Shown: positions 4,814 through 15,345, counted from the first letter of the stretch. The stretch is DNA of 64,000 bases from Actinomycetota bacterium (GCA_016201065.1 JACQDL010000028.1:1-64000); one strand, 5' to 3'. Numbers and translations: made by a program. The notes: generated by a model not told the origin, from the sequence alone.

Positions 4814-6051
4814 ATGGAAGTGGTGCACTCCCGGTGTGCCGGGATGGACATCTCGAAGAAGGACGCCAGGGTCTGCGTCCGGATCGCGGGTGCGGGCCGG
4901 CGCAAGACGGTCGAAACCGTCACGACGTGGGGATCGATGACCAACCAGATCCTCGCGCTGCGCGACCACCTGGCCGCCGAGCAGGTCACGTGCGTGGTGA
5001 TGGGGGCGACCAGTGACTACTGGAAGCCGTTCTACTACCTCCTGGAGGACGTGCCGGGGTGGAGGTGCTGCTGGTCAATGCCCGGCACGTGAAGAACCTA
5101 CCCGGCCGCAAGACCGACGTCGCCGACGCGACCTGGCTGGCACAACTCGGCGCCCACGGGCTGGTCCGGGGCTCGTTCGTACCGCCCGAGCCGATCCGGC
5201 AGCTGCGGGACCTCACCCGAACCAGGACGGCGATCACCCGCGAACGGTCCCGGGAGGCGCAGCGGCTGGAGAAGCTCCTCGAAGACACCGGGATCACACT
5301 CTCGACGGTGGCATCCGACATCCTGGGTGTGTCCGGGCGGGCGATACCGGAGCGGCTCATCGCCGGTGAGCGCGACCCCACGGCGCTGGCCGATCTGGCC
5401 AAGCGTCGACCGCGGTCGAAGATCCCCAGCCCCACCGAGGCGCTCGTCGGCCGGTTCGCCGAGCACCACGCCTTCCTGGCCCGGGTGCACCTGGACCTCA
5501 TCGACCGCCACACCACCGCGATCGACCAGCTCACACAGCGTATCGAGGTGCTGATCGAGCCGTTTCAGGGCTTCCACGACCTGATCTGTTCCATCCCCGG
5601 CATCAGCACCCGGATCGCCGACGTCATCATCGCCGAGACCGGCGCCGACATGGCCGTGTTCCCCACCACCAAGCACCTGGCGTCGTGGGCCGGCACCACA
5701 CCGGGCAACAACGAACCCGCCGGGAAGGTGAGGTCCAGCCGCACCCGGCCGGGCAACCCCTACCTGCAAGGCGCACTCGGCCAGGCGGCGATGTGGGCCA
5801 CCCAGAGCCCCCGCACCTTCCCCGGCGCCCGGTACCGGCGCACCGCCAGCCGCCGCGGCCCACCACGAGCCAACGTCGCGGTCCAGCACACCCTGCTGAC
5901 CGCGATCTGGCACACGGGCACCACCGGCACCCTGCACGAGGACCTCGGCGGGGACCACCACAGCCGACTCAACCCCGAACGCACACGCACACCAGCGATC
6001 CGACAACTGGAAGCCATCGGCTACCGAGTCACCCTCAACCAAGCCTCCTAA
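4814..6051 (+). pseudogene. IS110-family transposase, frameshifted and catalytically mutated
   Basis: The N-terminal part (ATG 4814, with AAGGGAG upstream) begins MEVVHSRCAGMDISKKDARV, carrying the first DEDD aspartate in DISKK. After codon 81 the frame is lost in the run at 5053-5058: LLEDVPG continues as VEVLLVNARHVKN only in the +1-shifted frame, which runs to 6051 and holds GRKTDVADA with the last two acidic residues. The C-terminal half has SIPGISTRIADVIIAETG and the Ser-containing SSRTRPGNPYLQGAL typical of the family. At residue 64, where the family has the catalytic Glu (VMEAT), this copy reads VMGAT, which a single GAG to GGG change would produce. Frameshift and lost acidic residue together mean the element is dead. 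Confidence 0.88.
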
Positions 6052-6232: not shown

Positions 6233-6544
6233 GTGGCTGCGAGCAAGACCCCGACGGCGGTGTCGCGCTCCTTGCGCAGGCTCGGCGAGGACCTCAGCAC
6301 GTGGCGCAAGCTGCGTCAGCTCACCGCCAGCGAGGTCGCCGACCGGGCCGGGGTCGGGGTGAGCACCGTGCTACGGCTGGAGAAGGGTGACGGCGCCACC
6401 CTGGAGAACGTCCTTCGTGTCGCTCGGGCGCTCGGCGTTCTCAAGGCTCTCACCGATGCCCTCGACCCTCGCGCCACGGATCTCGGACGGCTCCGCGCCG
6501 ACGAGGCTCTGCCCGAACGCGTCCGTCACCGGAGGGCGACGTGA
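6233..6544 (+). CDS. hipB: HipB-like XRE-family antitoxin/repressor
   Basis: This protein of about 103 residues carries one Cro/C1-type helix-turn-helix at roughly residues 22-75: WRKLRQLTASEVADRAGVG followed by STVLRLEKGDGATLENVLRV. I choose GTG 6233 because TAAGGAG lies 6 bases before it; an in-frame ATG at 6212 would give 7 more residues but has no ribosome-binding site. It overlaps hipA by 4 bp, the standard coupled antitoxin-toxin arrangement. HipB proteins bind operators in their own promoter and neutralise HipA. The upstream 6165-6212 is strikingly AT-rich for this genome and probably holds the promoter and operator. Confidence 0.85.
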   Translation: MAASKTPTAVSRSLRRLGEDLSTWRKLRQLTASEVADRAGVGVSTVLRLEKGDGATLENVLRVARALGVLKALTDALDPRATDLGRLRADEALPERVRHRRAT

Positions 6545-7794
6545 CCGGAGTGACCGTGTACGTCGCCCTGGACGGCCACGATGTGCTCGCCGGCACCCTG
6601 TACTCGCACCGGCGTCGCGGCACGGAGTCCGCCACCTATGCCTACGCACCCACATATCTCGCCACCCCGGGTGCCTACGCACTCGACCCGGAGCTCCCTC
6701 TCACCAGCGGCACCCATCAGACACGAGTGGGCAGGGCTCTGTTCGGGGCCCTCACCGACAGCGCGCCGGACCGCTGGGGACGCACCCTCGTCACCCGTCG
6801 TGAAGCTGCGCTCGCCCGCGTCGAGGGGAGAGCCCCCCGGGCGCTCGCCGAGATCGACTACCTGCTGGGCGTGCGGGACGACCTGCGTCAGGGTGCTCTG
6901 AGGTTTCGCGTCGGCACGGGGCCGTTTCTCGCCGACGACGACGCGGGCGTGCCCGCGCTGACCGACCTACCCGCGCTGCTCGAGCTGGCGGCACGCGCCG
7001 ACAGTGACACCGCCGACCTACCCGATCTTCAACGCCTCGTCCGTGTCGGGAGCTCCCTGGGCGGGGCGCGCCCGAAAGCGCACGTGCTCGACCGCAACGG
7101 CCGCGTCGCGATCGCCAAGTTCCCCAGCGCCAACCATGACACGTGGAACGTCATGGCGTGGGAGAAGGTCGCCCTCGACCTCGCCGAGCGCGCGGGCATC
7201 GACGTGCCACCGTCGCGGCTGCTGCACCTCGCCGGCCGCAGCGTCCTGATCGTCGACCGGTTCGACCGCGACAGCACCGGCCACCGGATCGGCTACGTCA
7301 GCGCGATGACCATGCTTGAGGCGTCCGACGGCGAGCAGCGCAGCTACCTCGAGATCGCGGAGGTCGTCGAGACCGCGTCCGTGCGCGCCACCGAGGAACT
7401 ACGCCAACTCTGGCGCCGCATCGTGTTCTCGGTGCTGATCTCGAACACCGACGACCATCTGCGTAACCACGGGTTTCTGCACGAGCGTGGCGACGTGTGG
7501 AGGCTCGCGCCGGCGTTCGACCTCAACCCGAACCCGGCGCCGGGACCCAAGTACCTCAGCACTGCGATCGACGACATCAGCGACACCGCGAGCCTCGCCT
7601 CCGCTCTTGCCGTGGCCGAGCACTTCCGGCTGTCCGACACCCAGGCCCGCGCGGCGCTGCGTGAGGTCGGGGTGGCCGTGAGCGGGTGGCGCGAGGTCGC
7701 CGGACAGCACGGGCTCACCCCGTCCGAGATCGCGGCCATGGAGTCGGCGTTCACAGCCGGCGATGACGCCGCCGCCTTGACAGGGTCGGGCTAG
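6541..7794 (+). CDS. hipA: HipA-family serine/threonine kinase toxin
   Basis: This 417-residue HipA toxin starts at GTG 6541, overlapping hipB by 4 bp. The N-terminal subdomain (about 1-120) contains FGALTDSAPDRWGRTL, and the kinase part carries the glycine-rich SSLGGARPKA loop near residue 170, the phosphorylation-regulated loop in HipA. Catalytic NTDDHLRNHGF is at residues 302-312 and the metal-binding segment APAFDLNP about 20 residues later. E. coli HipA phosphorylates GltX and triggers dormancy; the target here is unknown. Length and motifs are complete, so the pair looks functional, unlike its neighbours. Confidence 0.9.
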   Translation: MTGVTVYVALDGHDVLAGTLYSHRRRGTESATYAYAPTYLATPGAYALDPELPLTSGTHQTRVGRALFGALTDSAPDRWGRTLVTRREAALARVEGRAPRALAEIDYLLGVRDDLRQGALRFRVGTGPFLADDDAGVPALTDLPALLELAARADSDTADLPDLQRLVRVGSSLGGARPKAHVLDRNGRVAIAKFPSANHDTWNVMAWEKVALDLAERAGIDVPPSRLLHLAGRSVLIVDRFDRDSTGHRIGYVSAMTMLEASDGEQRSYLEIAEVVETASVRATEELRQLWRRIVFSVLISNTDDHLRNHGFLHERGDVWRLAPAFDLNPNPAPGPKYLSTAIDDISDTASLASALAVAEHFRLSDTQARAALREVGVAVSGWREVAGQHGLTPSEIAAMESAFTAGDDAAALTGSG

Positions 7795-7803: not shown

Positions 7804-8951
7804 GTGGCGGTCGTTGAGCTCCCGGTGAGGGTCGCGAGGGTTGCGTGTCCGCACGACTGCCCGGACACATGTGCGTGGACGGTAACGGTGCGAGACGGCC
7901 GGGTCGAGGAGCTGACCGCGGACGCCGACCATCCGTTCACCCGTGGCGGCCTGTGCCCGAAGGTGAACCGATTCCTGGAGGACCGGACCTACCAGCATGA
8001 TCGACTGCTGAGGCCGCTGCGCCGGACCGGGAGCAAGGGGGCGGCGGAGTTCGAGCCCGTCTCCTGGGAGGTGGCGCTCGACGAGATCGCCGGCCGGCTC
8101 GGCGCCGTGATCGACGGCTCCGGCGGTGAGGCGATCACGATGGGAACCGGAACCGGGCTGCTGCCCGAGGACCCCTCGACGCGTTCGGTGAACATGGTGC
8201 AGCTGGGGCGGGCTCTCACGGGTCTCGAACCCCCGGTCCGCGCGCTCGTCGTCTACAGCGCCAACCCCGCGGTGACCGCCCCGAACCAGAACCTCGTCCG
8301 CCAGGGGCTCGGTCGCGACGACCTCTTCACCGTGGTGATCGACCACGTGGTGACCGACACCGCGCGGTACGCCGACTACGTCCTCCCGGCCACGACCCAG
8401 GTGGAGCACCACGACATGATGTGGTCCTGGGGTCATACCTACCTCGCCCGCAACGAACCCGCGATCGATCCGGTGGGTGAGGCGCTCCCGAATGCGGAGA
8501 TCTTCCGGAGGCTTGGGCGTCGGATGGGGTTCGCGGAGCCGGCCTTCAAGACCGGCGACGAGGAGCTCGTGGCCGGGAGAGCCCGATGGGGGACCAGCGG
8601 CTCGCCGCCCGGTACCCGCTGTCGCTGGTGACGGCCAAGGGGGCCCACCACTTCCTGAACTCCAGCTACGGCAACATCGAACGCGCCATCGGGGCCGAGC
8701 GAACCCCGACCCTGGAGATGAGCGTCGACGACGCGACCGCGCGGGGCATCGTCGACGGCGACACGGTGCGTGTGTTCAACGGCTGGGGGTCCCTGGAGCT
8801 GCCCGCGAAGGTCGGGGACGTCGTTCGGCCGGGTGTGGTGTCGATGCCCTCTGGCTGGTGGGCCTCGCCGGCCAGCCGAGGCGGTGACGGTGGCGTCACC
8901 GGAGTCACCCGGATACGCGCCATAGTGGACGTTGCGCGGCGAAGGAGCAGG
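7804..8951 (+). pseudogene. internally deleted molybdopterin oxidoreductase
   Basis: The 5' part encodes the family's N-terminal iron-sulfur motif (CPHDCPDTCAW, with the fourth Cys in RGGLCPKVNRF). The text then jumps from GTGTG to SVNMVQLGRALTGLEP, so a large central piece is missing. It continues with ALVVYSANPAVTAPNQNL and DTARYADYVLPATTQVEHHD, normal for the molybdopterin-binding region, and loses frame near 8580. A second frame from about 8586 resumes with LAARYPLSLVTAKGAHHFLN and the C-terminal dinucleotide-binding domain to about 8930. Normal proteins are near 700 residues; about half remains. Two deletions and a frame change make it non-functional. Confidence 0.85.
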
Positions 8952-9206
8952 ATGGCAAGTCAGACGCTGGTCGGCAAGGTCGGGTTGGTGGTCAGCGCGG
9001 TGCGCGGCGGCCCTCGCCCGGGGGAGGTGCGGGTGGTTGTTGGCGGTATCGCCCACTACTACATCGCGTACGCTGCTGTCGCGGTACCAACCGGCGCGGA
9101 GGTACTCGTCATCAACAACCGTGGCGCGCGTCAGGTCGACGTCGAGCCATGGCCGAGCATACCGACCAGCGATACCATCCCCGGTCGGACGGAGAGGTCA
9201 GAGTAG
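8952..9206 (+). CDS. small NfeD-like OB-fold protein
   Basis: This 84-residue protein starts at ATG 8952 with AAGGAG upstream. It consists of one beta-rich domain (GKVGLVVSAVRGG, GTAEVLVINN-type strands: TGAEVLVINNRGARQVDVEP) like the C-terminal domain of NfeD proteins. NfeD-type genes sit beside flotillin/SPFH genes in most bacteria, and the next gene, overlapping by one base (TAGTG), is a flotillin. It has no membrane segment, so it is a short cytosolic version. It would act with the flotillin in membrane microdomain organisation, but that partner is frameshifted. Confidence 0.6.
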   Translation: MASQTLVGKVGLVVSAVRGGPRPGEVRVVVGGIAHYYIAYAAVAVPTGAEVLVINNRGARQVDVEPWPSIPTSDTIPGRTERSE

Positions 9207-10260
9207 TGTTCGGTTACCGCGTTCCCGCTCCCAATGAAGCCCTTCTGATCAGTGGAAGGAAGCAGCGCGGAGCGATGCGCTTCCGTTCAAGATTGTCACC
9301 GGGCACGGCGTCTTCGTGGTCCCGGTCTTTTCCAGAGCCTCCCGACTGACGCTGGCGATGCAAGAGGCGGAGGTCATCGAGGACTGCTTCACGAAGCAGG
9401 GGCTGACCTTGGCCGTGCAGGCCGTCATCGCGTTCAAGGTCGGCGACGACCACGAGTCGATCGCCGCCGCAGCGCGGCGGTTCCAGGGTGATCAGTCCCA
9501 GATGGCCACCCTCGTCGGGCGGATCTTCAGCGGACACCTGCGCAGCATCATCGGCAGCATGACGGTCGAGGCGATCATCCGGGAGCAGCAGACCCTCGCC
9601 GACGCCATCGTCGACGCGAGCAAGACCGAGATGGGACGGATCGGCCTGGCAGTCGACTCGTTGCAGATCAGCAGCATCGACGACAAGGGCGCCGGATACA
9701 TCAGGGCCCTCGCGGCCCCACACCAGGCCAAGGTCAACCAGGACGCCAAGGTGGCCCAAGCGGCCGCCGACCAAGCCAGCGCGATGGCGTACCAGGAGAG
9801 CATGCGCAACCAGGCCGAGTACGCCCGGCAGACGGCCATCGCCCAGGCGCAGTACCAGGCCGAGATCGATCAGGCCCAGCAGACCGCCGCCCAGGCCGGG
9901 CCGTTGGCCGCGGCGCGCGCCCAGCAGGCGGTCCTCGTCGAGCAGTCCCTCGTCGCGCAGAAGAATGCCGAACTGCGGCAGGCCGAGCTGATCGCCGAGG
10001 TCGTCCGCCCGGCGCAGGCCGAAGCCGAACGGATCACCACACTGGCTCGCGCGCAGGCCGACGCCACGAAGCTGTCCGCCCAGGGTCTGCAGGGCGCGAA
10101 CCTCACGGTGCTCGACGGTGCCGAAGGGCTCAGCAGCGTGGTCGCGTCCCTCGCCGGGCAAGGTCTGGCACTGCTGGAGTCGGTACGCAACGGGATCGGC
10201 AGGGCCGAGGAGGTCGAGGTGGCCGAGGCCACCGGGAGACCTGCCGTCGTCACCGGCTGA
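9206..10260 (+). pseudogene. flotillin-like SPFH-domain protein with an N-terminal frameshift
   Basis: GTG 9206 begins MFGYRVPAPNEALLISGRKQ, a typical flotillin N-terminus, but the frame then diverges into nonsense and stops near 9349. The proper continuation (LPFKIVTGHGVFVVPVFSR) is in another frame from about 9280 and runs uninterrupted to 10260. A one-base loss or two-base gain near 9272-9282 explains both halves. The second half has the SPFH core, then a long Ala/Gln-rich coiled coil (QAKVNQDAKVAQAAADQAS onward) as in flotillins. An internal start (ATG 9316) could yield a truncated product lacking the membrane-associating N-terminus. A sequencing error cannot be excluded. Confidence 0.8.
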
Positions 10261-10440: not shown

Positions 10441-10448
10441 TGGTGTGG

Positions 10449-10519
10449 AGCGGGTGACCGGGATCGAACCGGCATGGCCAGCTTGGAAGGCTGGGGCTCT
10501 GCCATTGAGCTACACCCGC
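10449..10519 (-). tRNA. tRNA-Gly (anticodon TCC)
   Basis: Read on the minus strand, the acceptor stem GCGGGTG/CACCCGC is perfect, with discriminator T and an encoded CCA at 10446-10448. The D arm begins TAGCTCAAT, the anticodon stem is CCAGC/GCTGG around loop CTTCCAA (anticodon TCC), and the T arm contains GGTTCGATCCC. The gene is intact, with a terminator-like hairpin just beyond it. Confidence 0.95.
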
Positions 10520-10836: not shown

Positions 10837-11031
10837 GTGCGGATCGTCGTCCGAGTATATGCGGGTCCGCGCAAGGTGGACGGCAAGAGCCAGACCTACG
10901 AACCGCATGGCTCGGTGCCGGCGGCCACGATCCGGAAGGCGGGCAGCGGCTCGGTCTTCCGCGTGGAGGGCGAAACGTACGATAGCGAAGGACGCGCGAC
11001 GCAGTTCTTTCTCCGGTGCCGATTGGCGTGA
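10837..11031 (+). CDS. small basic hypothetical protein
   Basis: This protein of about 64 residues is read from GTG 10837 (CGAAGG about 10 bases upstream); GTG 10804 in the same frame is the alternative. It is beta-rich and basic (RIVVRVYAGPRKVDGKSQ). Its stop overlaps the next start (TGATG at 11029-11033), which argues that both are translated together. I do not recognise it. The coding call rests on the coupled stop/start and normal codon use. Confidence 0.45.
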   Translation: MRIVVRVYAGPRKVDGKSQTYEPHGSVPAATIRKAGSGSVFRVEGETYDSEGRATQFFLRCRLA

Positions 11032-11528
11032 TGACCTTGGCCGATGTTCGGGTGAGCCGGTGGACGCCGCAGCGTATTGAGGCTGCTGGGCGGTTCTTGA
11101 TCGAGCGGATTCTGGCCGATTTCGGCCCGGTCGCCGGTCGCTCCGACCTGATCGCAGTACGGGTGGACCCGACGTGGGCGGCGGACGGCGGCTGGCCGGA
11201 GGGGCGGCCGCCAGAGGACCCGGTCGAGCCGGGGGATGTGGTGGCCACGCTGTTGGGTGGCCGGCATGAGTTTGTGGCACGTCTGGACGAGGGGGTCGAG
11301 TACGCCTGCTGGGTGGTCGCGGACCAGCTACAGGACGGCGTCATGGACGACCTTGCTCGGCCGTGGCCGGAGCTGGAGGACAGCGAGGGTCGGATCGTTG
11401 GGGTGCTTGAGCCCCAGTTCGAACCGCTGATGCTGGCCCATTGGGCGCTTCGGGGCGCGCCGTTCTGTGCCGTCGGCCACCTTCATGATGCCGTGGCGGC
11501 GGCGGGATGGCGGTTCGTGGCGAGCTGA
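11031..11528 (+). CDS. hypothetical protein, possible SUKH/immunity-sized domain protein
   Basis: This 165-residue soluble acidic protein starts at ATG 11031, overlapping the previous stop by one base. It is Trp- and Glu-rich, with VSRWTPQRIEAAGRFLIERI at the N-terminus and a middle segment EFVARLDEGVEYACWVVADQ. No motif lets me assign a family. It lies 108-135 bp upstream of the giant NTPase-kinase gene in the same orientation, so the three may form an accessory unit between two tRNA genes. The immunity suggestion is only by size and acidity. Confidence 0.55.
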   Translation: MTLADVRVSRWTPQRIEAAGRFLIERILADFGPVAGRSDLIAVRVDPTWAADGGWPEGRPPEDPVEPGDVVATLLGGRHEFVARLDEGVEYACWVVADQLQDGVMDDLARPWPELEDSEGRIVGVLEPQFEPLMLAHWALRGAPFCAVGHLHDAVAAAGWRFVAS

Positions 11529-11663: not shown

Positions 11664-14600
11664 GTGGCGCTGACGGCTCGATTCCGCCCGGGCGCGACCC
11701 GGCGGCCGTTCGTGGACCGGGAGCCTGTGATCGAGCTCTTCGATGAGCTGGTGGCCCGGAGCGGCGAACCTCAGGTGCTGGTGCTGACCGGCCTCGGCGG
11801 CATCGGAAAGTCCCGGCTCGTCACCGAGCTGCGGTCGCGCCTCACCGATCGGTACGCCTCCGCGGTGCTGGACCTGCAGGTGCCGGCGCAGCGCCAGCCG
11901 GAGGCCGCGCTGGCGACCCTTCGAGCCGAGTTCGGCCGGCAACAGGTGTCGTTCCACCGCTTCGACATCGCGTACGCCGTGCTCTGGCAGCGGCTCCACC
12001 CGCATCTGCGGATCACCGCCGACGGGCTGCCCCTGGTGGCCCAGAGCGAGATCCTGACCGAGATCCTCGACGCCGCCGCCGGCCTCCCGGTCTTCGGTAC
12101 GGCGGCCAAGCTGCTGGACTCCGGCAGCCGGCGACTGCGGCGCTGGCAGACGGTGCGGCGGGACCCGACCCTCTCCGAGCTGGACCTGCTGTCCCTGCCA
12201 CGTCTGGTGGACGCGGTGTCCTACCTGTTCGCGGAGGACCTGAAGGCGCGGGGCGGCCCGTATGCGCTGTTCGTGGATGCGTACGACGCGCTCGTCGGCG
12301 GCGTCGAACGGGTCGGCTGGGCGGCCGCCGATGATGGCTGGCTCCGCGACATCGTCGCCCAGCTCGACACCGCGATCGTCGTGGTCGCCAGCCGGGAACC
12401 GCTGGGCTGGGAGATCCACGACCCGGAGTGGGCGACCCGGTTGCGGACCGTCGACGTCACTGATCTTCCGATGGCGGCCCGTGAGGAGCTGCTGGCGGTG
12501 GCTGGCATCACCGATCCCACGGAACGTCGTGCGATCGCGATCTCCAGCGCTGGCGTGCCGTTCTACCTGCATCTGGCGCTTGACGCGCACGGCCGGTTGC
12601 CGACCGGCGACGCCCGGATCACAGTCTCGCCGGAGGCGATCCTGGAACGGTTCCTCCGGCATGTCGAGCCCGCGCAGGTCCGTGCCCTGGAACTGCTCAG
12701 CGTGGCCAGGACGATCGACGGCGAGATCTTCGCGACGGTCGCCACCGAGTTCGGAGTGCCATCCGGCCGGCTCGCGTGGCAGTCGATGGTCGGCTATTCG
12801 TTCGTGTACGGCGTGAGGTCCGGGACCGACGTCGGCGAGGGGACCGAGCCGACCCGGTTCCGGTTGCACCAGCTGATGCTGCGGGCGTTGCAGCGGAGGC
12901 TGACGCCAGCGCTGGTGATCTCGCTGCACCGCCTGCTCTACCAGCTGTGGCAGCAGCGGAGCGTGGAGCCCGGTCAGCGCGTGCCGGCGTTGCGTGAGGC
13001 GGTCTATCACGGCGTGCGGGCCGGCGAGGTCGGCGCGGCGGAGCTGCTCGGGTACGTCGACCAGATCGCGGCCGCCGGTGGCAAACGCGGCATCGATGGT
13101 GTGCTGGCCGACCTGCTGGATCACCTCGCCGACATGCCAGCGATCGACCGTGAGCATGCGGAACTGGCCGAGCTGGCTCGTTGCCTGGAGGTCGAGGCGG
13201 CGTTGCTGCTCGGCGACGCGGCGGGTGGGGTCGAGCTCACCCGCGATCTCGGTCCGGTCCGGCCGGGTCCGGTGGCCGAGCGGCTGGCTGTGGCCGCCGG
13301 CAACGCTCGGCGGATTCTTGGCCGCACCGACGAGGCGCTGGCGATCTTCCGGACGGTGTGGGCCTCGGGCACGACCCGGGCCAGGTTGACCGCCGGGCTC
13401 TGGGCGGCCGACCTGGACATGTGCCAGGGGCGCTTCGCCGATGCGCTCGCGCTGACCGAGGAGCTCGGCGCCGCGTGCCCGCCGGACGACGACGAGTTCC
13501 ACGGCGACCTCGCGCGGCTCCGGTCGCTCGCCTACCGGTTCGGCGCCGATCTGGCCGGCGCGGATCGGCAGCTGGTCGAGGCGGAACGTCGGTACGCCGC
13601 GGCAGGCTCCGTGATCGGCGCGGCGAATATCGCCACCAATCGGGCGGAACTTCTTGCGTTCGCCGATCCGGAGTCGGCCATCCCCGCCGTCGGCGTGGCC
13701 ATCGAGGCGCAGCGTGAGCTCGGGGCGCTCCACGAGCAGGGCAAGGCGTACACGGCACTCGGCGTGGCGCGGCTCATGCTCGGTGACCTGGCGGCCGCGG
13801 AGCATGCCCTCGACGCGGGTTGCGATGCGCTGGAGCGGGCGAACTACCGCTCGGGCCGGGCGCGCGCCGAACTCTTCCGCGCGGCGTTGCGGATCCGGCA
13901 GGGGCGCCGCGCGGACGCCGTGGCCAGCGCGCGCACGGCCGTCGCCGAGCTGGGCGCGGCCGCCGTCTACCCGACGCTGGTCATGCTGGCCGACGCGATG
14001 TTCGGGCTGGCCGGTTGGCCGGACCCGGACCTCGCCGTGGCGGCGGCACGCTGCGGTCGTCAGGTCCAGCCCTTTGTCGGTGGTCCAACCCTGTCCGAGG
14101 CCCTTGGTCGGCAGGCCGGTCGTCTCATCGGCGTCGAAACCGACGATCTCTACCGGGAGGCGATCAACCGGTCGGACCTGGCGTCCGGCTTCTACAACCA
14201 CAACGTGCAGGTCGACACGGTTGCCGGCGTGGTGAACGTCCGCGTCGCGGTGCCCGGCGCAGACCAGATGGACCTGCGGATCTGGCCCGAAGCCGAGGTG
14301 CTGCGGGCGCTGGCGTCGCATGTCCCGCGGGTGCCCCGGGTGCGTTTCGCCAGTGCCGATCCGGCGTTCCAGGTCCAGGACCACATCGAGGGTGTCCTGC
14401 TGGACGAGATGGCGCCGCGCGGTGTCGCGGTGCCGGCGCAGGTGCCGCACGATGTGGCGACGCTGTTCGGCCGGCTGAGCGCGGTGCCGGCGGCCGAGCG
14501 TCCGGCCGGCTGGCCCGCGGACGGGGACACGCCCGGCTTCGCGGCTCGGTTGTCCGCCGTCACGGAGACCGTGTACGCGGCGCACGCCGGCGAGTTCGGC

Positions 14601-15134
14601 GCGCTGTTCGGCCGCCTCGGCATCCCGGCGCGACCGGTCGAGGCGGCGATCGCCGGCTGGGCCGGCCTGGCCGCGCGCCCGTTCCGGCTCGTCCACGCCG
14701 ACGTGCACCGCAAGAACATGATCGTGGCTGACGGTGTGGTCTGGTTCCTCGACTGGGAGCTGGCCCTCTGGGGTGACCCGGTGTACGACGTGGCGAGCCA
14801 CCTGCACAAGATGGCGTACCTGCCAGCCGAGCAGGAGACGTTCCTGGCGGCCTGGGAGCGGGCCGAGCCGGCCGCGGCAGGACCCGGCTGGCAGGACGAC
14901 CTTTCCGCCTACCTGCGGCACGAACGGGTCAAGTCGGCCGTCGTCGACACGGTCAGGTACAGCAAGCTCATCGCGGCCGGGGGGTGCTCGCCGGATCAGG
15001 AACGCGCTCACCCGAAAGCTGGCCGGCAAGCTGCGGGCGGCGTACGAGGTGTGGGGGCAGCCGGCGGCCAGCTTCGACGAGGACGACTTGCTGGTGATCC
15101 TGCGCGCCGGCGGGCGGGGGTGAGGTCGGGGTGA
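11664..15134 (+). CDS. STAND-type NTPase / TPR-like / aminoglycoside-phosphotransferase-like fusion protein
   Basis: This protein of about 1156 residues has three parts. Residues 20-340 are a STAND/NB-ARC-like NTPase: P-loop TGLGGIGKSRLV starts at 42, Walker B YALFVDAYDAL at 200, then a VASREPLGW sensor-like segment and a winged-helix region. Residues about 420-800 are repetitive Ala/Leu-rich helices with TPR-like spacing. Residues about 830-1120 form an APH-like kinase: IWPEAEVLRAL, a brace HADVHRKNM at 1011-1019 and a metal-binding FLDWE with D1030. The start is GTG 11664 or TTG 11637; neither has a strong ribosome-binding site. Near 15005 the normal continuation (LTRKLAGKLRAAYEVWGQ) is in another frame ending at 15123, so the last 35-40 residues read here are aberrant. 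STAND proteins are regulated switches, often in defence or transcription control; the kinase fusion is unusual and its substrate unknown. Confidence 0.8.
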   Translation: MALTARFRPGATRRPFVDREPVIELFDELVARSGEPQVLVLTGLGGIGKSRLVTELRSRLTDRYASAVLDLQVPAQRQPEAALATLRAEFGRQQVSFHRFDIAYAVLWQRLHPHLRITADGLPLVAQSEILTEILDAAAGLPVFGTAAKLLDSGSRRLRRWQTVRRDPTLSELDLLSLPRLVDAVSYLFAEDLKARGGPYALFVDAYDALVGGVERVGWAAADDGWLRDIVAQLDTAIVVVASREPLGWEIHDPEWATRLRTVDVTDLPMAAREELLAVAGITDPTERRAIAISSAGVPFYLHLALDAHGRLPTGDARITVSPEAILERFLRHVEPAQVRALELLSVARTIDGEIFATVATEFGVPSGRLAWQSMVGYSFVYGVRSGTDVGEGTEPTRFRLHQLMLRALQRRLTPALVISLHRLLYQLWQQRSVEPGQRVPALREAVYHGVRAGEVGAAELLGYVDQIAAAGGKRGIDGVLADLLDHLADMPAIDREHAELAELARCLEVEAALLLGDAAGGVELTRDLGPVRPGPVAERLAVAAGNARRILGRTDEALAIFRTVWASGTTRARLTAGLWAADLDMCQGRFADALALTEELGAACPPDDDEFHGDLARLRSLAYRFGADLAGADRQLVEAERRYAAAGSVIGAANIATNRAELLAFADPESAIPAVGVAIEAQRELGALHEQGKAYTALGVARLMLGDLAAAEHALDAGCDALERANYRSGRARAELFRAALRIRQGRRADAVASARTAVAELGAAAVYPTLVMLADAMFGLAGWPDPDLAVAAARCGRQVQPFVGGPTLSEALGRQAGRLIGVETDDLYREAINRSDLASGFYNHNVQVDTVAGVVNVRVAVPGADQMDLRIWPEAEVLRALASHVPRVPRVRFASADPAFQVQDHIEGVLLDEMAPRGVAVPAQVPHDVATLFGRLSAVPAAERPAGWPADGDTPGFAARLSAVTETVYAAHAGEFGALFGRLGIPARPVEAAIAGWAGLAARPFRLVHADVHRKNMIVADGVVWFLDWELALWGDPVYDVASHLHKMAYLPAEQETFLAAWERAEPAAAGPGWQDDLSAYLRHERVKSAVVDTVRYSKLIAAGGCSPDQERAHPKAGRQAAGGVRGVGAAGGQLRRGRLAGDPARRRAGVRSG

Positions 15135-15187: not shown

Positions 15188-15261
15188 CGGGGTGTGGCGC
15201 AGTTTGGTAGCGCACTCGCTTTGGGAGCGAGGGGCCGTGGGTTCAAATCCCGCCACCCCGA
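15188..15261 (+). tRNA. tRNA-Pro (anticodon TGG)
   Basis: The acceptor stem CGGGGTG/CACCCCG is perfect, with discriminator A and CCA encoded at 15262-15264. The anticodon stem CTCGC/GCGAG encloses TTTGGGA (anticodon TGG), and the T arm has GGTTCAAATCC. It lies 84 bp before tig. The two tRNA genes at 10.4 and 15.2 kb bracket the accessory NTPase-kinase segment. Confidence 0.96.
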
Positions 15262-15345
15262 CCACGAGGCTGGGTCGCCGGCCCGCCTCAGGCGTCCGTC
15301 CAGCCCGATCCCGGCCCGGCCACCGGTTCCCCAAGGAGAACTCAC

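Follow-up and report, generated by a model that had tools for sequence, protein, structure and literature searches.

We identified a gene that joins a STAND-like NTPase, a TPR-like superhelix and an APH-fold kinase in one protein. The composition of its switch and kinase halves, their conservation, their coupling in relatives and the selection acting on both are established, and on balance we lean towards reading the protein as a ligand-gated STAND-type switch with small-molecule phosphorylation as its output, probably acting as an NLR-like conflict module.

Architecture and reading frame of the fusion gene

The window, i.e. the whole stretch of 64,000 nucleotides that was analysed (Actinomycetota bacterium, GCA_016201065.1, JACQDL010000028.1:1-64000), contains an ORF that is open to position 15134 from either TTG 11637 or GTG 11664, and the residue encoded by GTG 11664 is the start of the alignment in all four named homologues described below (MAL.ARF). 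In 100 first-order Markov copies of the region ORFs reached at most 667 aa, and the GC content per codon position in the ORF is 0.78/0.50/0.89; ORF length and codon-position GC thus exclude chance and identify a real gene. The sequence-only reading had placed NTPase, TPR-like region and APH-like kinase in a single frame from 11664 to 15134. Pfam and the homologues bear out this architecture and its conservation, but the C-terminus has to be corrected, as a shift of frame near 15000 moves the true end to 15123. The features of the gene are as follows:

11664-14999, plus strand: STAND-like NTPase, TPR and APH fusion, in-frame part (GTG start; ORF; full-length homologues with 55-58% identity)
11709-12563, plus strand: P-loop NTPase domain, approximate limits (residues about 16-300; AAA_16 in 21/21 family members)
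11787-11813, plus strand: Walker A, TGLGGIGKS (GxGGIGKS invariant in 21/21; GxGGxGK invariant in 11 diverse members)
12267-12293, plus strand: Walker B, LFVDAYDAL (D205 invariant in both alignments, i.e. 21 family and 11 diverse members)
12387-12410, plus strand: sensor-like motif ASREPLGW (R244 and W249 both invariant in the 11 diverse members)
12552-12569, plus strand: GVPFYL motif at the position equivalent to the STAND GxP, named by that position (P299 invariant in 11 members)
12867-12878, plus strand: HQLM motif in the winged-helix region at the position equivalent to MHD, named by that position (H402 invariant in 11 members)
13269-14012, plus strand: TPR-like superhelix, confident part (residues about 536-783; pLDDT mostly 73-96; TPR models in the family; TPR proteins in Foldseek)
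14064-14213, plus strand: variable linker (residues 801-850; 14% invariant columns versus 24-62% in other 50-residue blocks)
14178-14999, plus strand: APH-fold kinase domain (residues 839-1112; PF01636, E = 1.9e-19, in 29/29 members; APH and choline-kinase structures in Foldseek)
14694-14717, plus strand: catalytic loop HADVHRKN (no variation at H, D, H, R or N across 29 kinases)
14751-14759, plus strand: metal-binding DWE (D, W and E also constant in these 29 kinases)
14997-15005, plus strand: frameshift point, approximate (homologous sequence moves from frame 0 to frame +1)
15003-15123, plus strand: actual C-terminal tail, read in the +1 frame (match to KLRAAR..WGQ of the homologues)

The folds proposed in the sequence-only reading are backed by profiles. 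In the window protein Pfam detects AAA_16 (PF13191, E = 2e-8) and APH (PF01636, E = 8e-18), both found throughout their alignments, and several TPR models match subsets of the 21 family members (best E 1e-5). Walker A and B motifs and the combination of repeats with an effector domain (TPR and APH) are among the features of the STAND superfamily, and we file the NTPase as STAND-like at superfamily level and in no named clade. The 11 diverse members in the invariance alignment come from three phyla; P299 and H402 follow the NTPase core in the expected order, in a region where the structure model is poor. The full-length AlphaFold2 model has a mean pLDDT of 58.5 and is poor outside the TPR part, where the helical region was modelled as TPR-like pairs. 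A Foldseek search with the whole model gave the STAND-TPR protein 6mfv as best match (E = 9.5e-9).

With a mean pLDDT of 66.8 the kinase model is of modest quality; its structural neighbours in Foldseek are APH(9), corramycin kinase and choline kinases. Combining sequence and fold, the relatives with solved structures are APH(4), APH(9), corramycin kinase, choline/ethanolamine kinases and CcrZ. As these are mostly small-molecule kinases, we predict that the likeliest acceptor is the hydroxyl of a small molecule.

In the homologues the C-terminus continues with EQELVASLVGKLRAARATWGQ, and the window has the counterpart in the +1 frame, reading RNALTRKLAGKLRAAYEVWGQPAASFDEDDLLVILRAGGRG up to a stop codon at 15123. 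Directly after SP.QE one homologue, as an example, reads ALVANLLGKLTLAHEVWGQ and the +1 frame of the window NALTRKLAGKLRAAYEVWGQ. Since the homologous tail is read in the +1 frame, one base must have been gained or lost near 14997-15005; the HxDxxxxN and DWE motifs of the kinase are positioned upstream of this site. A few kb upstream of the fusion gene an SPFH/Band_7 gene is split over two frames (9149/9316), a molybdopterin oxidoreductase gene also lies in two frames (7804/8586), and the broken frames cluster within 7804-10260. As these two genes are frameshifted likewise, the frameshift near 15000 is likely to be a sequencing or assembly error; alternatively, it may be a real lesion at the C-terminus of the gene.

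Fused, split and solo relatives

Full-length homologues with 55-58% identity were found in Actinokineospora globicatena, A. terrae, Nocardia concava and an Actinophytocola MAG in a first scan using one genome per species, and the 199 further genomes sampled from the window's own order gave no full-length match. A class-level search of 395 genomes added seven complete fusions and one fusion split over contigs, so that the fused form is present in 13 genomes, the window included. In ten other actinomycete genomes from the class search the NTPase-TPR and kinase halves are encoded by neighbouring genes, whose stop and start codons overlap or touch (ATGA or TGATG, and GTGA in locus L086). The gene boundary of these split relatives is at about residue 820, inside the variable linker. 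Homologues thus do not occur as separate proteins only, as both fused and adjacent coupled forms exist, and this conserved architecture supports the earlier proposal of a switch that drives a kinase. At locus L086:7045-11470 two different APH genes lie in tandem behind the STAND gene; their products are 46% and 43% identical to the Actinokineospora kinase domain.

On well-supported branches of the switch tree, fusion or fission must have occurred at least twice. A relative from the window's order (G529) groups with Nocardia with full support, which would place the window in Mycobacteriales. Main clades in the kinase tree are broadly those of the switch tree, with solo kinases nested inside the split clade; kinases of this clade that occur without a switch are found at L087, L088 and L100. 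The dN/dS values are low, 0.14-0.19 for the switch and 0.19-0.25 for the kinase, indicating purifying selection on both halves.

An APH domain of about 38% identity is embedded in very long open frames, of 12,536 and 18,658 residues, in two genomes from the order of the window (L098, L099). A first assignment of these frames to polyketide synthases was dropped after part of the translation had been read by eye; a metalloprotease-like GHExxH stretch follows the kinase.

Gene neighbourhood and distant relatives of the switch

Four features flank the fusion gene, and all of them are outside the module:

10446-10519, minus strand: tRNA-Gly(TCC) (ARAGORN)
10837-11031, plus strand: small ORF (no family match; no counterpart beside relatives)
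11031-11528, plus strand: 165-aa ORF (no family match; absent beside relatives)
15188-15264, plus strand: tRNA-Pro(TGG) (ARAGORN)

Integrases mostly use the 3' ends of tRNA genes. The tRNA-Gly and tRNA-Pro genes named in the sequence-only reading are present, but the accessory insertion it suggested is not borne out: both tRNAs have their 5' ends towards the fusion gene, and no att-like repeat was found flanking it, so that we rejected integration at the tRNA genes. Differences in GC content between gene and flanks are small and of both signs, giving no sign of recent foreign origin, and a search of 50,697 phage records returned no match. The two small genes at 10837 and 11031, which had been taken for possible parts of the module, do exist, but we rejected them as partners since they lie beside no relative; for the 165-aa ORF the 199 other genomes of the order gave one weak match. 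Pfam matches in ten neighbouring ORFs of the window are IS110, HipA, molybdopterin oxidoreductase, SPFH, trigger factor, ClpP, ClpP and ClpX. After the IS110-type transposase (5059-6051) comes a HipA-like kinase (6541-7794; HipA_C E = 7e-47). A HipB-like HTH is read directly upstream of this kinase, and HipA and HipB are a probable toxin-antitoxin pair some 4 kb away from the fusion gene.

Beside the STAND/APH pairs no third gene, including a substrate gene or a biosynthetic cluster, recurs. A divergent TIR-NB-ARC gene adjoins one coupled pair (L085:3433-7323), the Actinokineospora copies have a DNA methylase nearby, and the Nocardia-type copies adjoin a UvrD-like helicase. Tallying 111 neighbours with PADLOC and Pfam gave protein-kinase, SDR, helicase and methylase matches, a listing without background from which we claim no enrichment. 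At a recurring Streptomyces-type locus (L089-L097, L101) an APH protein, single or double, is encoded together with a HAD phosphatase, a UvrD-like helicase, a TetR regulator and several regulators of the GntR type. No model of PADLOC 2.0.0 matches the window protein, and among the 11 diverse NTPase members one matches DolB at E = 8e-4 only.

Most of the more distant members of the switch family came from tblastn against plasmid records, a collection that biases their gene context; the members were then compared by pairwise hhalign, the E-values of which refer to a single comparison and not to a database. In Nonomuraea gerenzanensis (L110:5716-10108) the NTPase-TPR part is fused to a C-terminal ADP-ribosylglycohydrolase (E 3e-27, 718 columns); a PfkB-kinase gene overlaps it, and RepSA and integrase genes of a pSAM2-like element adjoin. 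A Priestia member (E 3e-29) is located behind a HEPN gene, a Gloeothece member (E 5e-17) is accompanied by a DUF1822 gene and a CHAT-annotated nSTAND1-WD40 gene, and a Streptomyces member (E 1e-12) shares a 4-nt overlap with an excalibur-domain gene and is preceded by genes for zeta toxin and PIN. The Salipiger member (E 4e-15) represents a fourth phylum, reached by hhalign alone. Overall, zeta-toxin genes (PF06414, E 1e-70 to 1e-90) are found upstream of related NTPases in three Streptomyces-type genomes or plasmids (L112, L146, L147); among the members from the class search, two have a zeta toxin gene upstream and one an HNH gene downstream. That distant members carry or neighbour ADP-ribosylglycohydrolase and PfkB, HEPN, CHAT and zeta toxin is evidence for a putative common switch chassis with changing output enzymes.

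Proposed function and comparison with known systems

Because the distant clade members carry or neighbour toxin- or immunity-type enzymes, we predict that the likeliest biological role is that of an NLR-like conflict or stress module altering a metabolite. The TIR-NB-ARC gene at L085, the DNA methylase and the UvrD-like helicase described above are further company on which the predicted conflict role is based. In the resting state the TPR array would keep the NTPase ADP-bound. Binding of a ligand, which may be a protein, a peptide or a product of an invader, would trigger ATP exchange and oligomerisation, bringing together or unlocking the C-terminal kinases, and these would then phosphorylate a hydroxyl of a small molecule such as an amino alcohol, a sugar or a nucleoside-like compound. 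Against the reading as switch and kinase we count the lack of a PADLOC model and of a conserved neighbour, the plasmid bias in the context of the distant members and the listing without background of defence-like neighbours, the solo kinases, the limited hhalign results, and the poor full-length and modest kinase models. A wider claim, which we make tentatively and which may well prove too broad, is that an undescribed STAND clade in Actinomycetota, Bacillota, Cyanobacteriota and Pseudomonadota comprises NLR-like immune switches with exchangeable metabolite-acting enzymes, so that metabolite phosphorylation would confer immunity.

The STAND-TPR part might instead sense a metabolite or an antibiotic and gate an inactivating or pathway enzyme, the protein being a regulated antibiotic-modifying or metabolic kinase with no immune role. 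The fold is nearest to antibiotic and choline kinases, solo kinases occur, and in Streptomyces more distant kinases from the wider family, at about 30% identity, adjoin GntR regulators and HAD phosphatases. These surroundings are metabolic or regulatory and agree with the HAD-APH operons that Kaur et al. (PMC7159879) noted in actinobacteria. However, related switches with unrelated enzymes (ADP-ribosylglycohydrolase) or partners (HEPN, CHAT) fit a conflict chassis better, and no biosynthetic cluster recurs beside the pair, so that we regard this explanation as rather unlikely.

PknK is a known example of a STAND protein fused to a kinase, and by analogy the APH-like domain could phosphorylate a protein in a kinase relay. 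Protein kinases are also common effectors in actinobacterial conflict systems (PMC7159879). Among the 29 kinases, however, none is matched by a Pkinase model, while APH models match all and choline-kinase models 26, and no conserved substrate gene accompanies the kinase; a protein relay therefore appears improbable to us. That the gene is a chance fusion, an assembly artefact or a decaying gene is suggested by the frameshift near 15000 and the broken adjacent genes, but is highly improbable and refuted for the family as a whole by intact full-length fusions in several genera, low dN/dS and the presence of fused and split forms on one tree.

If the reading as a ligand-gated switch with a small-molecule kinase is right, small-molecule phosphorylation would join NAD depletion, nuclease and protease action as an output fused to NLR-like switches. 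The natural fused and split versions would then be test material for how the switch gates the enzyme, and the occurrence of the kinase alone, coupled and fused offers a natural route to a substrate search.

Like the window protein, 6mfv, a STAND NTPase with a TPR sensor, combines an NTPase with a TPR superhelix, at a sequence identity of about 10%; its entry title names no fused kinase, whereas the window protein has one. MalT-type STAND regulators have a similar NTPase-TPR layout, but Pfam shows no HTH domain in the window protein, and we rejected kinship of the switch with MalT as hhalign gave a probability of 0.8% and aligned a short TPR stretch alone. The best solved match of the NTPase profile by sequence is AfsR (E = 9e-5), a transcription regulator which we take to be an NB-ARC/STAND protein with a switch plus TPR architecture; the likeness of AfsR/NB-ARC regulators to the window NTPase is limited to the P-loop region, and in hhalign with an NB-ARC protein 47 columns of the P-loop were aligned, with no similarity beyond. 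The kinase shares the fold, HxDxxxxN and D(W)E with the APH/choline kinase family (PF01636), from which the window protein differs by the large N-terminal switch. APH enzymes have a Lys in the N-lobe, whereas the window family has an invariant Arg in VxVRIP, and choline kinases have an Arg at that position.

In the literature searched we did not find a description of the clade or of the fusion or coupling of an APH kinase to a STAND-TPR protein. The idea of an APH effector itself is not new: the sequence-only reading rightly called it unusual, and an APH-superfamily kinase is the effector in NTP-dependent vWA-MoxR ternary conflict systems (Kaur et al. 2020, PMC7159879; follow-up PMC8195603). 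Pfam detected no vWA or MoxR gene among the ten neighbouring ORFs of the window. In the vWA-MoxR systems the effector is part of a three-gene system, whereas the partner of the APH kinase here, by fusion or coupling, is a STAND-TPR protein that looks active.
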